A stretch of DNA of 64,000 nt from Candidatus Saccharimonadota bacterium (GTDB lineage Bacteria; Patescibacteriota; Saccharimonadia; Saccharimonadales; Saccharimonadaceae). The DNA is taken from the NCBI GenBank assembly GCA_017406775.1, contig JAFQXV010000003.1:62001-126000 (forward strand), written 5' to 3'. This document shows positions 38,294 through 56,875 of this stretch, piece after piece. The stretch's first letter is position 1, and each line of letters starts with the position of its first letter. The notes under the pieces were generated by a model, which searched no databases, had not been told where the DNA came from, and worked only from the letters and a program-made list of their open reading frames with translations. Position numbers and translations under genes: made by a program.

Positions 38294-38370
38294 GCGAATG
38301 TAGCTCAGTTGTTTAGAGCGCTTCCTTGCCAAGGAAGAGGTCGAGAGTTAGAGTCTCTTCATTCGCACCA
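38294..38370 (+). tRNA. tRNA-Gly(GCC) with altered D/T-loop contact
   Basis: 77 nt with CCA. Acceptor GCGAATG/CATTCGC, anticodon stem CTTCC/GGAAG with loop TTGCCAA, T-stem GAGAG/CTCTT. The D-loop has G18-U19 in place of G18-G19, and the T-loop is TTAGAGT with A at position 56 in place of C. The two changes are complementary (U19-A56 replaces G19-C56). TATAAT at 38277-38282. Confidence 0.93.
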
Positions 38371-38630
38371 TTTTTTATGCTCCAATACAGACCCTCCATC
38401 ATTAACTCTCGGACTTACGTATCGAGAGTTAGAGTCTCTTACGTTCTGCACCATTTTTTATGCTCCAATACAGACCACTCCATCACTAACTCTCGGACTT
38501 ACGTATCGAGAGTTAGAGTCTCTTCATTCGCACCATTTTTTATGCTCCAATACAGACCCTCCATCACTAACTCTCGGACTTACGTATCGAGAGTTAGAGT
38601 CTCTTACGTTCTGCACCATTTTTTATGTCT
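38342..38630 (+). repeat. Tandem array of tRNA-Gly 3' halves
   Basis: The 18-nt T-arm CGAGAGTTAGAGTCTCTT occurs at 38342 (in the tRNA), 38423, 38507 and 38588, with spacings 81, 84 and 81. Each copy ends in an acceptor strand plus CACCA, then a T-run and a conserved linker. Acceptor ends alternate: CATTCGC (copies 0 and 2) and ACGTTCTG (copies 1 and 3), so a 165-bp two-unit block was duplicated. Each linker carries AACTCTCG, which can pair with CGAGAGTT of the next copy. Confidence 0.92.
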
Positions 38631-38650
38631 ATGCTATAATAACCATAAGC

Positions 38651-39622
38651 ATGGATATTTTTTCGCAAATAGTATTATTAGTGGTTGGCTTTGTACTGCT
38701 AATCAAGGGCGCCGATTGGCTTATAGAGGGATCCTCCTCTGTAGCATCGCATTTTAAAGTTTCCAAACAACTCATCGGGCTCACCATCGTAGCCATTGGT
38801 ACTGGCGCCCCAGAGCTAGCCGTCTCAATCTCTTCTCTCGCCAGCGGCAATACCGATCTACTTATCGGCAACGTTATGGGGAGCAATATCATCAATATCC
38901 TTTTACTAATTGGCGTAGCTGCCACAATTAAACCATTTCACATCCGTAAAACCACCATTGCCAAAGAACTCCCTCTTCTACTACTTATCTCTACGGCATT
39001 AGTTATTTTGTTTTTAGACACAAGCATTACCGGCGCCAGCACAAACGAAATCTCCCGCAGTGATGCACTTATTTGTATTCTCCTTTTTGCAATTTTCATT
39101 TATTATATCGTCCGTACCACTCGCAAAAACCGCAAAGCTAACAAAGAAGTCGCTAAACCAAAATTTAAACTCAGCAGTTCTTTTATCCTAGTAATCATCG
39201 GATTAATCGGTGTGGTAGCCGGCAGTCAATTAGTAGTTGACTCCGCCTCATTTATCGCTTCCGCAATCGGCATCTCGGATCGCGTTATCGCTCTTAGCGT
39301 AGTGGCTTTAGGTACATCACTGCCAGAATTGGTTACCACCATCACTGCCGCCAAACGCGGCGAGCATGATCTAATTATTGGAAATGTCGTGGGCAGTAAC
39401 ATCTTTAATATTTGCATAGTGCTCGGTCTACCAGTAATATTGTTTGGCACAATTTCACCAGAAAGCTTTGAGATCGTCGATATTGCCATGCTCATTGGCT
39501 CCGCCATCATTCTTTGGCTTGTTACCGCAACCCAAAACAAAATCACCCGCAAAGAAGGCATCCTTATGTTGGTTATTTTTGCGATATATTACGGCTATTT
39601 AATTTATGGAGCAATTGTATGA
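38651..39622 (+). CDS. Calcium/sodium antiporter, CaCA family (YrbG-like)
   Basis: 323 residues, about ten transmembrane helices in two inverted halves. The alpha repeats read GTGAPELAVSISS...GNVMGSNIIN and GTSLPELVTTITA...GNVVGSNIFN. It exchanges cations across the membrane. The frame stays open back through the tRNA-Gly repeats (unit lengths are multiples of 3), but ATG 38651, 10 nt after TGCTATAAT, is the credible start. ATGA overlap with the next gene. Confidence 0.93.
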   Translation: MDIFSQIVLLVVGFVLLIKGADWLIEGSSSVASHFKVSKQLIGLTIVAIGTGAPELAVSISSLASGNTDLLIGNVMGSNIINILLLIGVAATIKPFHIRKTTIAKELPLLLLISTALVILFLDTSITGASTNEISRSDALICILLFAIFIYYIVRTTRKNRKANKEVAKPKFKLSSSFILVIIGLIGVVAGSQLVVDSASFIASAIGISDRVIALSVVALGTSLPELVTTITAAKRGEHDLIIGNVVGSNIFNICIVLGLPVILFGTISPESFEIVDIAMLIGSAIILWLVTATQNKITRKEGILMLVIFAIYYGYLIYGAIV

Positions 39623-44255: not shown

Positions 44256-44283
44256 TTGACAAAATTCGTCAAGGGAGTACAAT
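44256..44283 (+). promoter_or_regulatory. Promoter of the GC-rich cassette
   Basis: TTGACA (44256-44261), 16 bp, TACAAT (44278-44283). Near-consensus and directed at the structured leader. It lies just upstream of, and divergent from, the GT8 gene. Confidence 0.82.
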
Positions 44284-44285
44284 AA

Positions 44286-44416
44286 ATGGATACCCCTGTA
44301 GGGACACCGTACTTTAAATCATCTGTCTAACACATTCCGTAACTCGGCTTGGCTACCAAATTGGCAGCTAAACCGAGTCACGGAATGGGCCGTGACCAAC
44401 GATCAAGGGGTTAAAA
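44286..44416 (+). promoter_or_regulatory. Structured 5' leader with alternative hairpins
   Basis: A possible 14-codon ORF (44286-44330, MDTPVGTPYFKSSV) precedes a long hairpin in which CATTCCGT (44333-44340) pairs with ACGGAATG (44380-44387), ACTCGG with CCGAGT, and TTGGCT with AGCTAA. A second 7-bp hairpin GTCACGG/CCGTGAC (44377-44396) shares bases with the first, so the two are exclusive. A Shine-Dalgarno AAGGGG follows at 44405-44410. The layout suggests attenuation or a sensing RNA; no known riboswitch class recognised. Confidence 0.7.
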
Positions 44417-44771
44417 ATGCAGTTAGAGGAACTCAAACGCATCAGTGTACAAGCAACACCCGGAACCAAGGTCTATTGGCCAAAGGAGGATAGAATCGGG
44501 GCGCTCGACATGTCCCGTATTGCCGCCAAATTCGGCGGTCACCCTGTCTACAACTACGGTGGCAAGAGGAATCACAAAACCCTCGCGTTCATCGATGAAA
44601 ACTCGAACTTCTACGTCGTTCCGTGCACCAGTGAGCGAATCAATACTCTTATAGAAAATGGTTTTACCCGTGAAGACTTCTATGTACCATTCTCTCACGG
44701 CGACATCCCATTCGATGGCCAAGAGCTTTGGCTCGCATCCACCAAGCTGTAGTCGGTTATTAGACAGATGA
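44319..44771. repeat. 12-bp inverted repeat flanking the cassette
   Basis: TCATCTGTCTAA at 44319-44330 is exactly complementary to TTAGACAGATGA at 44760-44771. It encloses the leader hairpins and the 111-residue gene. It could be ends of a small mobile cassette or a long-range RNA stem. Confidence 0.75.
44417..44752 (+). CDS. Orphan small protein in GC-rich cassette
   Basis: 111 residues, soluble, mixed alpha/beta with no signal or membrane segment. Aromatic and Gly-rich stretches include KVYWPKEDRIGALDM, FGGHPVYNYGGKRN and DFYVPFSHGDIPFDGQELW. It is not recognised. Base and codon choice (GCC, CTC, AGG, CCG) differ clearly from the AT-rich neighbours. It has its own promoter, structured leader, AAGGGG ribosome site and terminator, so it is an autonomous unit, probably acquired. 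Confidence 0.75.
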   Translation: MQLEELKRISVQATPGTKVYWPKEDRIGALDMSRIAAKFGGHPVYNYGGKRNHKTLAFIDENSNFYVVPCTSERINTLIENGFTREDFYVPFSHGDIPFDGQELWLASTKL

Positions 44772-44777
44772 ACTTTA

Positions 44778-44813
44778 GCCCTCAGCTCACAATGGAGCCG
44801 AGGGCCTTCTTTA
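44778..44813 (+). terminator. Terminator of the GC-rich cassette
   Basis: GCCCTC-A-GCTC pairs with GAGC-C-GAGGGC, then CTTCTTT. Partly overlaps the 3' end of the convergent L,D-transpeptidase. Confidence 0.9.
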
Positions 44814-52758: not shown

Positions 52759-52901
52759 CTCTATATAATTACAAAATACTCATGTTTAAAAGGATAATAC
52801 TAACATATCCACCGTAAATCCTGCCCCTAACACCAATATCGTATCATTTACTTCCTAAATTCAAACCAAAAAAATGCTATAATATACTCAGGAATAAACC
52901 C

Positions 52902-55900
52902 ATGGGACTATTTTCAAAAAGTACACCAAAAGAACCACAATTGCCATCCACGCCTCAAACTCCCGAGATTCTCGATAATGTCAACAAAAAAGTCGTGGAC
53001 GATTTAAAACGAACTATCAAAAAAGGTAGCAGAATTTCCATTGCTGCAGCCTCTTTTTCCATCTATGCCTTTGAAGCACTTAAAAAAGAGCTAAATCAAA
53101 TCGACGAATTCCGTTTTCTCTTCACTGGCGAAACTTTCACCAAAGAAAAAGCCAAAAAAGAAGCCCGCGAATTCTACATTCCCCGTTTAAACCGCGAGCG
53201 TTCACTATACGGTACCGACTTTGAAGTACGCCTCAGAAACGAACTTAATCAGCAAGCCATCGCCAAAGAATGTGCCGACTGGATTCGCAAAAAAGCCCAC
53301 TTCCGCTCCAACATTTCAGGCGAAGCCATGTCTCCGTTTATGAATGTCGAAAACCCAGAAACACCCTCAAATAATAACAACCAAAAATCCGAAAGCATCA
53401 CCTACAACCCCTTCCCTAACTTCACAACCGCCGAACTCGGCGAAGACCGCGGCAATAACGCCTATTCCATCATCACTAAACTTTACGCCCCATTTACCGA
53501 GCAATACCTTAATACTTTCAACCAAATCTGGAACGATGACGACCGCCTTGATGATGTAACCGACACGGTCTTAGAAAACATCACCGCCGCCTACAAGGAA
53601 AACTCCCCCGAATTCATCTACTACGTCGCACTATATAATATATTCAACGAATTCCTCGAAGACATCAACGAAGACACTCTCCCCAACGTCCAAACCGGCT
53701 TCAAAAATTCCAAAATCTGGGAAATGCTCTACAATTTCCAAAAAGATGCTGTCGTCGGCTGTATCTCCAAACTCGAAAAACACGGCGGTTGCATCCTTGC
53801 TGACTCCGTCGGCCTCGGTAAAACCTTCTCCGCACTCGGCGTCATTAAGTATTACGAATGTAGAAACAAATCCGTCTTAGTTCTCTGCCCTAAGCGTCTC
53901 CAAGCCAACTGGAACACTTTCAAACATAATTACAAAAACAACCCCATCGCATCCGACCGCCTAAACTACGACGTTCTCTTCCACACCGATCTCGACCGCA
54001 AGCGTGGCATGTCCGGCGAAACTGATCTCAGCATGATTAACTGGGGCAACTACGACCTAGTTGTCATCGACGAATCTCATAACTTCAGAAATGGCGAACG
54101 CTCCACTCACAAAGCCGAAGAAGACTATCTCAATCGCTATCAAAAACTCATGAAAAAAGTCATCAAAGCTGGCGTCAAAACCAAAGTTCTCATGCTCTCG
54201 GCCACCCCAGTTAATATCAACTTCACTGACCTTAAAAACCAGCTTATGATTGCTTGCGAAGGCGATTCCGAAAATCTAGACAGAACTCTCAAGACCAAAA
54301 ATCCATTAGACAAAGTTTTCCAAGACGCCAATTCCGCCTTTAATACTTGGTCTGCTCTAGAACCAGAAGACCGCACTACCGACAAGCTTCTCGAAATGCT
54401 CAGTTTCGATTTCTTCGATTTGCTCGACAGCGTCACCATCGCTCGCTCACGCAAACACATCGAAAAATACTACAACGAAACCAACCTCGGTACTTTCCCA
54501 GAGCGTCGCAAGCCAATCGGCCACCGTCCTGATCTTACTGACATTGAAGGCATCAACTTCGACATGATTTTTGAGCATATCGACGCACTCAATCTCGACA
54601 TTTACACCCCTCTCAAGTTCGTCCATGCCTCCAAACTAAATAAATATGTAGACACCGAAAGCGCCAGTGGTAAAACCTGGGCCAACCGCGAAGAAGGTCG
54701 CAATGTCCTCATGATTACAAATCTCCTCAAACGCGCGGAGAGTTCCATTTATGCCTTCCGCATGACCACTGAAAGACTTTACGATTCAATCTGTCGAACA
54801 ATAGAGAGTATCAACCGTTTTGAGACGCACCGCACCGAGCATCTCGATTTCACAGACATAGCCGAGCAAATTAAAGATGTCGACGAAGACGATATTGACG
54901 ACGATTTTTCTATCGGTAAAGATCTCAAAATCAAATTTGAAGATATGGACTATGTCTCTTGGCGTAGTCAGCTAGAAAAAGACAAAGCTACTCTCGAAGA
55001 TTTACTAACACAAATCAATCTCGTCACTCCAGAACACGACCTCAAACTCCAAGAGCTCGAAACTACTATAGCAGACAAAATCACCCACCCTATCAACGGC
55101 GACAATAAAAAGATTCTCATTTTCACCGCCTTCGCCGACACCGCCGATTATTTATATGAAGAACTAAAAGATAAAATTCTCGACAACCACAATCTCCACA
55201 CTGCCATAGTCACCGGTAATCACACGCCGGACACCACTTTAAAAGGCGTTGCTAAAGATTTCAACGAAATCCTTACTTATTTCAGCCCCAAATCCAAAAA
55301 TCGCGACGCCCTAGGTCGCACCAACACTACCGACATCGACATTCTAATCGCCACCGACTGTATCTCCGAAGGTCAAAACCTCCAGGATTGCGATTATCTC
55401 ATCAACTACGACATCCACTGGAACCCAGTCCGCATTATTCAGCGCTTCGGTCGTATCGACCGCATCGGCTCCGAAAACAAAACCATCCAACTCGTCAATT
55501 TCTGGCCGAACATTTCCCTTGACGCCTACATCAATCTCAAGGCTCGTGTCGAAAACCGCACCAAACTCGTCAGTATCACCAGTGCCGGCGAAGACGTACT
55601 AGAAAACATGGACCCAGATCTCGAATATCGCAAAAACCAGCTCAAGCGCCTTCAAGAAGAAGTTGTCGACCTCGAAGAAATCAATGGTGGCATCAATATA
55701 ATGGATCTCGGCCTCAACGAATTTCACCTAGATGTCAAAGAGCTCCGTGACAAATACGGCGATGCCGACTATATACCATTTGGCATCAATGCCACTGCCG
55801 CCGCTACCGAAGACGCCCCCGCCGGTGTCATCTATATTCTCAAGAACATCAATTCCAATGTCAACATTGATAAACAAAACCGCCTTCATCCATTCTATTT

Positions 55901-56219
55901 AGTTTATATCAAGGATAATGGTGAAGTGTTTGTAAATCACCTAAATCCCAAAAACCTTCTCGATAAAATGCGCCTCCTAGCTAAAGGCAAAGACAAACCC
56001 GAACGCGAGCTCGTCCGCATCTTTAACGAAGAGACAAATAATGGTAAAAACATGGCACAATATTCAGAGTTACTATCAAATTCCATCCGCAGTATCATCA
56101 CCGTCAAATCCGAACGCGATGTCGACAGTCTATTCCACGCCGGTGGCACCACCGCCCTCACCAACCAAATTTCCGGCCTCGATGATTTCGAACTAATAAC
56201 CTTCCTGGTGGTTAAATAA
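52902..56219 (+). CDS. SNF2/RapA-like helicase with N-terminal PLD-like domain
   Basis: 1105 residues. The N-terminal ~120 residues resemble phospholipase-D-like helicase partners (KKGSRISIAAASFSIYAF) but no HKD motif is seen. Walker A LADSVGLGKT is near residue 300, DESH (VIDESHNFRN) near 389, and helicase-C motifs ATDCISEGQNLQDCDYLINY and RFGRIDRIG near 845. First gene of the restriction operon. TATAAT at 52878-52883 and AGGA before the ATG. The operon is richer in G and C than the housekeeping part. Confidence 0.9.
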   Translation: MGLFSKSTPKEPQLPSTPQTPEILDNVNKKVVDDLKRTIKKGSRISIAAASFSIYAFEALKKELNQIDEFRFLFTGETFTKEKAKKEAREFYIPRLNRERSLYGTDFEVRLRNELNQQAIAKECADWIRKKAHFRSNISGEAMSPFMNVENPETPSNNNNQKSESITYNPFPNFTTAELGEDRGNNAYSIITKLYAPFTEQYLNTFNQIWNDDDRLDDVTDTVLENITAAYKENSPEFIYYVALYNIFNEFLEDINEDTLPNVQTGFKNSKIWEMLYNFQKDAVVGCISKLEKHGGCILADSVGLGKTFSALGVIKYYECRNKSVLVLCPKRLQANWNTFKHNYKNNPIASDRLNYDVLFHTDLDRKRGMSGETDLSMINWGNYDLVVIDESHNFRNGERSTHKAEEDYLNRYQKLMKKVIKAGVKTKVLMLSATPVNINFTDLKNQLMIACEGDSENLDRTLKTKNPLDKVFQDANSAFNTWSALEPEDRTTDKLLEMLSFDFFDLLDSVTIARSRKHIEKYYNETNLGTFPERRKPIGHRPDLTDIEGINFDMIFEHIDALNLDIYTPLKFVHASKLNKYVDTESASGKTWANREEGRNVLMITNLLKRAESSIYAFRMTTERLYDSICRTIESINRFETHRTEHLDFTDIAEQIKDVDEDDIDDDFSIGKDLKIKFEDMDYVSWRSQLEKDKATLEDLLTQINLVTPEHDLKLQELETTIADKITHPINGDNKKILIFTAFADTADYLYEELKDKILDNHNLHTAIVTGNHTPDTTLKGVAKDFNEILTYFSPKSKNRDALGRTNTTDIDILIATDCISEGQNLQDCDYLINYDIHWNPVRIIQRFGRIDRIGSENKTIQLVNFWPNISLDAYINLKARVENRTKLVSITSAGEDVLENMDPDLEYRKNQLKRLQEEVVDLEEINGGINIMDLGLNEFHLDVKELRDKYGDADYIPFGINATAAATEDAPAGVIYILKNINSNVNIDKQNRLHPFYLVYIKDNGEVFVNHLNPKNLLDKMRLLAKGKDKPERELVRIFNEETNNGKNMAQYSELLSNSIRSIITVKSERDVDSLFHAGGTTALTNQISGLDDFELITFLVVK

Positions 56220-56875
56220 TGATAAACTTACCAGAAAGTGCCAAAGTCGGTCGCATCATCGCCAAAGAAAAGTTCTACGGCAAAACCGACACCGCCACCA
56301 AAAACCTCTTCCAAAACGAAATCGCCCGTATCACCTGGGAATACAAACTTGCCCCCGAAACTATCAATCTCCCCGCCAAACACTGGCCTGAAGTCGAAGT
56401 CTTCCGTATCACCCTCAAAAACTACGAACTCCCCACCAAAATCCTAAAAGTCATTGATTCGGCCATTCCCTACCCCATCCTCTTCTTCGTCGAAAAAGGC
56501 ACCGCAAAGAAAGCCGTCATCTGTTATAAAGAGCAGAATCAAAAAAACGAAAACATCGCGAAAGTTGACACTTATTTTGAAACCGAATGGAACGATGAAA
56601 AACTCTCAAACATTAAAATCGACGGTCTAGATATTGATACGGTATTTGGCAATTTTGTCCGTCAAATCGCCGGCGAACGTTACGCTAGCATCAATACCAC
56701 TACCAACGGCAACGTCTCAACCATCATTAAGGATGACATCGAAAAAATTAAGGACCGCGAAAAAATCCAGAAGCAAATCGAAGCCCTCACTCGCAAAATC
56801 AAATCCGAACCTTCCATGGGCAAAAAGCAAGCCCTCGCCGAAGAGCGCTTCCACCTCAAACAACTCCTAAAATAA
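56219..56875 (+). CDS. DUF4391 protein
   Basis: 218 residues with LPESAKVGRIIAKEKFY at the start, ITWEYKLAPETINLPA in the middle and a C-terminal coiled coil. DUF4391 proteins occur between SNF2-like helicases and type III methylases in defence loci. Function unknown. TAATG overlap with the helicase. Confidence 0.82.
   Translation: MINLPESAKVGRIIAKEKFYGKTDTATKNLFQNEIARITWEYKLAPETINLPAKHWPEVEVFRITLKNYELPTKILKVIDSAIPYPILFFVEKGTAKKAVICYKEQNQKNENIAKVDTYFETEWNDEKLSNIKIDGLDIDTVFGNFVRQIAGERYASINTTTNGNVSTIIKDDIEKIKDREKIQKQIEALTRKIKSEPSMGKKQALAEERFHLKQLLK

Follow-up and report, generated by a model that had tools for sequence, protein, structure and literature searches.

What is a short, GC-rich transcription unit that carries two competing leader hairpins and is enclosed by a perfect inverted repeat: a mobile element, or a message whose folding controls its own expression? 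The unit lies at 44.26 to 44.81 kb of the window, by which we mean the whole stretch of 64,000 nucleotides that was analyzed (G000:C13:62001-126000), and its source is a 720-kb genome that is 99.6% complete. It holds a single gene, with its elements in the order near-consensus promoter, long leader hairpin (P1), alternative hairpin (P2), Shine-Dalgarno (SD) site, open reading frame (ORF) for a 111-residue orphan protein, and GC-rich terminator-like hairpin (Table 1). A divergent pair of GT8 glycosyltransferase and acyltransferase genes flanks it on one side, and a convergent gene for a YkuD L,D-transpeptidase flanks it on the other. A preliminary description had proposed both that the leader is regulated and that the flanking repeat hints at mobility; the first proposal is strongly supported by what follows, and the second is not.

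Table 1. Features of the cassette and their positions in the window
Feature	Position	Strand	Basis
Sigma-70-type promoter, TTGACA (44256-44261), 16 nt, TACAAT (44278-44283)	44256..44283	+	11 of 12 consensus positions
ACCCCU at the 5' end of the mRNA, predicted to pair as anti-SD with AGGGGU (44406-44411) while the leader is nascent	44292..44297	+	MFE fold and SD occlusion (putative)
X, leader arm of the 5'-3' long-distance interaction, UCAUCUGUCUAA	44319..44330	+	comparative complementarity, fold
P1, long and imperfect hairpin of the leader; 22 of its 25 pair positions (44333-44357 with 44363-44387) are paired	44333..44387	+	fold, covariation
P2, alternative 7-bp hairpin GTCACGG-AATGGG-CCGTGAC (44377-44383 with 44390-44396), mutually exclusive with P1	44377..44396	+	covariation
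Shine-Dalgarno site AAGGGG, 6 nt before the ATG	44405..44410	+	sequence
111-aa orphan protein of a family almost restricted to one bacterial genus, with a confident alpha/beta model	44417..44752	+	ORF, profile searches, AlphaFold2
X', 3'UTR arm of the long-distance interaction, UUAGACAGAUGA	44760..44771	+	comparative complementarity, fold
GC-rich terminator-like hairpin	44778..44805	+	in cassette fold

The near-consensus promoter and the AAGGGG site that had been proposed are both present, and a near-perfect consensus promoter occupies the equivalent place in 34 of 39 independent cassettes. Transcription is predicted to start near 44289-44291; start sites across cassettes are likewise predicted, and the genomes are possibly metagenome assembled. 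The 14-codon ORF claimed for the leader fared worse. Its ATG (44286) is only 3 nt past the -10 hexamer, placing it at or upstream of the expected transcription start, so that the frame is probably untranslated, and no equivalent was seen in homologues. The first 32 nt of the mRNA are predicted to form a 5' stem-loop (-5.6 versus -2.9 kcal/mol), with energies below those of shuffled sequences in 61 of 72 cassettes. At the other end, the hairpin of the supposedly strong terminator is present, but its tail is T-poor and a consensus scanner gave no call. No T-run follows either P1 or P2, so the leader lacks the form of an attenuator with an intrinsic terminator.

The claimed stem of about 20 bp and its 7-bp competitor correspond to P1 and P2, the latter reusing the 3' strand of the former. 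The leader folds at -49.6 kcal/mol (z = -3.25), an energy equaled by 0 of 200 shuffles. Fourteen homologous leaders can be aligned as a single structure in which P1 is 89% paired and contains 64 two-sided changes, versus 23 in shuffles. When the leaders of unrelated genes are added, 89 to 90% of the cells are paired and two-sided changes rise to 141, versus 51 in shuffles; this covariation is lost on sliding by 1 to 3 columns. Within P1, G-U combinations outnumber A-C combinations (72 versus 24), indicating that the pairing occurs at the RNA level. P2 is 93% paired in homologues, with a covariation score exceeding those of all 500 shuffles and of every slid version, and across 26 leaders that include those of unrelated genes its mean z is -1.9, beating shuffled sequences in nearly all. 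These mutually exclusive, predicted hairpins are a conserved property and no accident of one sequence. Comparative folding was not uniformly favorable: P1 and P2 are kept across homologous leaders, but some homologous genes have short leaders that are devoid of P1. P1 is far more stable than P2, so that P2 needs a trigger, for which the candidates are proposed below.

A separate, tiny hairpin, YATAGCC-NNNN-GGGCTTTAAACG, directly precedes the SD in nine leaders (L012, L013, L015, L016, L019, L021, L026, L030, and L035). It displays compensatory changes (AGYC/GRCU), is present also in leaders that lack P1, and could constitute a pseudoknot over the SD.

The 12-bp inverted repeat is perfect, as claimed, and any such pair arose in only 4 of 1,000 dinucleotide shuffles of the cassette. 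The closest homologue (L032) is complementary over 12 nt between its leader and 3'UTR, at corresponding places and with a different sequence. Averaged over all P1 cassettes, leaders pair with the stop regions of their own mRNAs at a duplex energy of -18.3, versus -14.7 ± 0.6 with permuted stop regions, and the longest complementary run in 25 representatives averages 8.8, versus 6.6 ± 0.25 for permuted 3'UTRs (z of about 9). The 51 control genes of the window display no such signal (z = -0.8 and -0.3). Thirty-nine cassettes from four genera, which were fetched later and unused in discovery, returned a z of 8.5, as against 2.2 for a control in which the 3' regions were reversed but not complemented. 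Because this control reaches z values of 2.2 to 4.0, part of the permutation signal is compositional, although that part is minor in the 39-cassette test. Homologues with short leaders yield a weaker signal (z = 3.0).

A position scan of 72 cassettes confined the 3' side of the signal to the stop codon and about 20 nt beyond, with runs of at least 9 nt at the stop codon or just after it in 26 and 22 of the 72 cassettes, versus 2 to 7 elsewhere. The 5' side is confined to the 20 to 40 nt before P1 (33 and 19 of 72, versus 0 to 5). In many cassettes, X' and the stop codon overlap. P1 and all 12 X:X' pairs are present in the fold predicted for the complete window mRNA, and a helix of at least 9 Watson-Crick pairs occurs in 31 of the 72 cassettes (about 40%), the interaction being weaker or absent in the others. 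Within X:X' helices, G-U is no commoner than A-C (4 versus 4), so the helix alone is no proof of pairing at the RNA level. On these comparisons of sequences, the inverted repeat is a 5'-3' interaction within the mRNA, with the sequence of X differing from cassette to cassette.

The protein encoded between these arms is an orphan, in agreement with the preliminary description. Searches of Pfam, NCBIfam, PHROGs, the PADLOC defense-system library, and PDB sequences produced no match, and the phage, plasmid, and viral collections held nothing credible. Its AlphaFold2 model is a soluble alpha/beta fold (pLDDT 92.6, pTM 0.85; maximum hydropathy, 0.37), for which fold searches of the PDB and BFVD gave no match at an E value of ≤0.001. 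Profile searches recovered relatives in 30 of the 174 genomes that represent the genus and in one sister genus; a further genome of the order gave a weak match. The family shares the core motif VPFS[NH]GD-xP-...-W, and some members are two-domain versions of about 240 aa. An apparent relative from Clostridia (L002) proved to be a 21-residue chance match within an unrelated gene.

The sharp compositional difference from the host that had been noted is supported: the ORF has a G+C content of 0.50 and a GC3 of 0.595, versus 0.396 and 0.369 (± 0.058 for GC3) for the genes of the window. The same deviation occurs in 22 of 25 related loci and thus belongs to the class of cassettes. High-expression codon bias was considered and rejected, as the fit of the cassette to EF-Tu usage is average (0.45, versus a median of 0.42); EF-Tu prefers C-ending codons (0.55). 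Elsewhere in the window (52901-56872), two adjacent genes with C-ending codon use of 0.62 and 0.69 and GC3 of 0.53 to 0.56 form a compositional island resembling the cassette.

The leader is more widely distributed than the protein. Two covariance models were built from relatives, R1 representing P1 and R2 adding the leaders of unrelated genes to the R1 set; both were short-calibrated, making their E values rough. R1 located the leader in 48 of the 174 genomes of the genus (E ≤ 0.01). Among 393 genomes sampled across the class, 42 were positive (E ≤ 1e-4), all belonging to one family and to 4 of the 153 genera, and the leader was not found in the other families of that sample. The 21 near-complete genomes of the genus mostly contain 0 or 1 cassette, and a few genomes elsewhere contain 3 to 5.

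Many leader matches precede proteins unrelated to the 111-aa protein. Clustering of 52 cassette proteins produced 33 groups, and almost none of ten that were scanned against Pfam had a match, the exceptions being a nucleoside deoxyribosyltransferase-like protein and a fragment with HEAT/LRV-like repeats. Two other cassette proteins that were searched in viral contigs returned nothing. P1 cassettes L098 and L174 (G018 and G426) encode a protein matching Nuc_deoxyri_tr2 (PF15891) above the cutoff (the L098 protein was scanned), which is one of the few functional hints among cassette proteins.

The reading to which we assign roughly an even chance is that the cassettes form a family-wide class of single-gene mRNAs built on a common RNA chassis, locked by folding and released by processing. 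The proposed chassis would run from the consensus promoter and 5' stem-loop through X, P1/P2, and the SD to an interchangeable orphan ORF, X', and the terminator hairpin. Its promoter, 5' stem-loop, P1, P2, and X:X', as predicted from aligned sequences, are conserved as structure and attached to unrelated proteins. While the message is being transcribed, the anti-SD segment 5' of P1 would pair with the SD and delay translation. Mean SD accessibility is 0.22 with the 5' arm intact, 0.37 with the arm shuffled, and 0.51 after a cut within P1, with occlusion by the 5' arm individually significant in only about half of the 14 leaders. Once the 3' end has been made, pairing of X with X' would bring both ends of the finished mRNA together, locking it in a folded, end-protected, and poorly translated state. 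Since the anti-SD pairing at the 5' end and X:X' would make up a pseudoknot, the two locks in the window may act in turn and not together. A cut in the P1 duplex, most plausibly by RNase III (which the genome encodes), or 3' trimming would then remove the anti-SD segment and X, and the freed 3' strand of P1 could refold with its 3' neighbor into P2, a hairpin that would then protect the new 5' end of a translatable mRNA. We infer these steps of silencing and release, under which the cassette proteins would be accessory factors. In leaders matured by RNase III, such as those of E. coli adhE and the early mRNAs of phage T7, a long leader duplex is cleaved. Cleavage of P1, which is our proposal, would similarly uncover the ribosome site, whereas the re-forming of P2 from the cut strand would be a new element.

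The same elements might instead serve stability alone, with the 5' stem-loop, P1, X:X', and terminator shielding the mRNA from exonucleases and thereby prolonging the life of scarce transcripts in small, slow cells, and with P2 acting as a fallback 5' hairpin once decay begins, without any switch. This is unlikely: end-protecting elements do occupy both ends of the mRNA, and after a cut in P1 the new 5' end would lie precisely where P2 forms, but neither the arm that occludes the SD in many leaders nor the placement of X' on the stop codon is explained by protection.

Another possibility is that P1, or the switch between P1 and P2, is recognized by a factor acting in trans, be it a small RNA, a small molecule, or a common RNA-binding protein, which would unite the cassettes in one regulon. 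The occurrence of the same P1 before unrelated genes, with a conserved U-A pair and then a G-U pair below the apex (the former nearly invariant and the latter frequent), is consistent with such a factor. We nonetheless find it distinctly improbable, because most genomes have 0 or 1 cassette (a few have 3 to 5), which leaves little for a regulon to govern, because the sequence of P1 varies greatly between cassettes, and because Rfam 15 contains no riboswitch or leader family that matches at the gathering score, yielding only sub-threshold chance matches besides tRNAs.

The preferred reading, a chassis locked by folding and released by processing, has counterparts in characterized mRNAs. In hok/sok, both ends of the full-length mRNA are paired with each other until processing releases them, as is proposed for the cassette, and the 5' region likewise has alternative hairpins (PMC8167048, PMC6733600); unlike hok/sok, the cassette is without an antisense RNA, an overlapping leader ORF, or a small membrane toxin, and its chassis carries dozens of unrelated proteins. 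The aapA/IsoA system of Helicobacter also combines long-distance 5'-3' pairing with short structures by which the SD is occluded while transcription proceeds (PMC6733600), but the far 3' end of aapA supplies the anti-SD, whereas in the cassette the pairing of X takes place upstream of P1 and a separate 5' arm serves as the anti-SD. In icaR of Staphylococcus aureus, base pairing between the 5'UTR and 3'UTR controls translation and is coupled to RNase III (PMC3868564). There the 3'UTR covers the SD directly, in one gene; the 3' arm of the cassette pairs 20 to 40 nt 5' of P1 and not with the SD, a P1/P2 switch is added, and the layout is common to many genes.

The long-distance interaction (established by comparison) and the competing hairpins of the leader have precedents in hok and aapA mRNAs (PMC6733600, PMC8167048) and would favor a type I toxin-antitoxin locus, in which folding and an antisense RNA silence the mRNA for a toxin. 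That identity is highly improbable: antisense promoters are not in excess in 72 cassettes (4 found versus 3.4 expected), none was found reading into the window leader, no overlapping antisense RNA gene or small hydrophobic toxin is present, and the protein is 111 aa long, soluble, and well folded in its model, not a small membrane peptide. The cassette would work like the hok, aapA3, and icaR mRNAs, but by two tested features, the lack of an antisense RNA and of a small hydrophobic toxin, it is no type I toxin-antitoxin system.

That X and X' are terminal inverted repeats, bounding either a mobile unit or an invertible segment subject to phase variation, is very doubtful, despite their perfection and the patchy distribution, unrelated cargo, and deviating composition of the cassettes, because X and X' differ between cassettes and so offer no shared enzyme site, the promoter lies outside them with P1 and the ORF in its orientation, many cassettes have X' overlapping the stop codon, the window cassette adjoins the same GT8 gene in four other species, and phage, plasmid, and viral collections hold nothing. 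The flanking repeat from which mobility had been suspected is RNA pairing of cassette-specific sequence and not a transposon end, and the cassettes showed no terminal or recombination sequence in common. A reading of P1 as an integron attC-like site was also ruled out, as P1 lies between promoter and gene and has no shared core sites.

A search for the cassette at other sites found it beside the same GT8-acyltransferase pair in G079, G109, G147, and G117; in G166 it is near that pair, beyond a dinB-like gene. What lies divergent to the conserved GT8 gene (region upstream of GT8, L115-L144) varies within the genus, this slot being occupied by a tRNA-like gene, a dinB-like gene, surface proteins, thioredoxin-reductase-like genes, or the orphan cassette. 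Synteny with the downstream YkuD gene is too poorly conserved to be informative. The window cassette is a patchy accessory gene and no insertion with terminal repeats.

We know of no regulatory RNA class, in the open-licence literature, that houses dozens of unrelated proteins in one chassis whose 5'-3' locks are specific to each cassette, although an earlier description elsewhere is possible. It is conceivable, if somewhat short of an even bet, that a bacterial family uses one self-closing mRNA chassis as a general-purpose holder for interchangeable accessory genes, all under the same lock-and-release control and possibly tied to the host-attachment life cycle. Gene regulation in ultrasmall, host-dependent bacteria is almost unknown, and the cassette, if its organism belongs to the Saccharibacteria (Patescibacteria), as genome size and gene content suggest, would be a concrete and testable translational control element for dozens of unrelated accessory genes. 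Locking of an mRNA by 5'-3' pairing, which has been described for toxin mRNAs and icaR, would thereby reach ordinary-looking proteins on the scale of a family, and covariance models of the leader provide a means of finding orphan genes. A 2024 review of the Patescibacteria describes the mechanisms of cell-state differentiation as completely unknown and translational regulation as likely key (PMC11665869).

Three observations concern the surroundings of cassettes and the rest of the window. A tRNA gene occurs within the roughly 3-kb locus of 9 of the 14 homologous P1 cassettes (L010, L014, L015, L017, L018, L021, L026, L032, and L037), which suggests that P1 cassettes prefer tRNA-flanked variable regions. 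Directly after the homologous cassette of L011 (G015), two tandem small-protein genes (1870-2700), of which the first has a TTGAC../TATAAT promoter and an SD of its own, encode proteins that resemble each other and represent another orphan family. At 38309-38757 of the window, a nearly identical stretch repeated in translations (GLTYRELESL...) is an intergenic tandem repeat upstream of a gene for an exchanger-like membrane protein.
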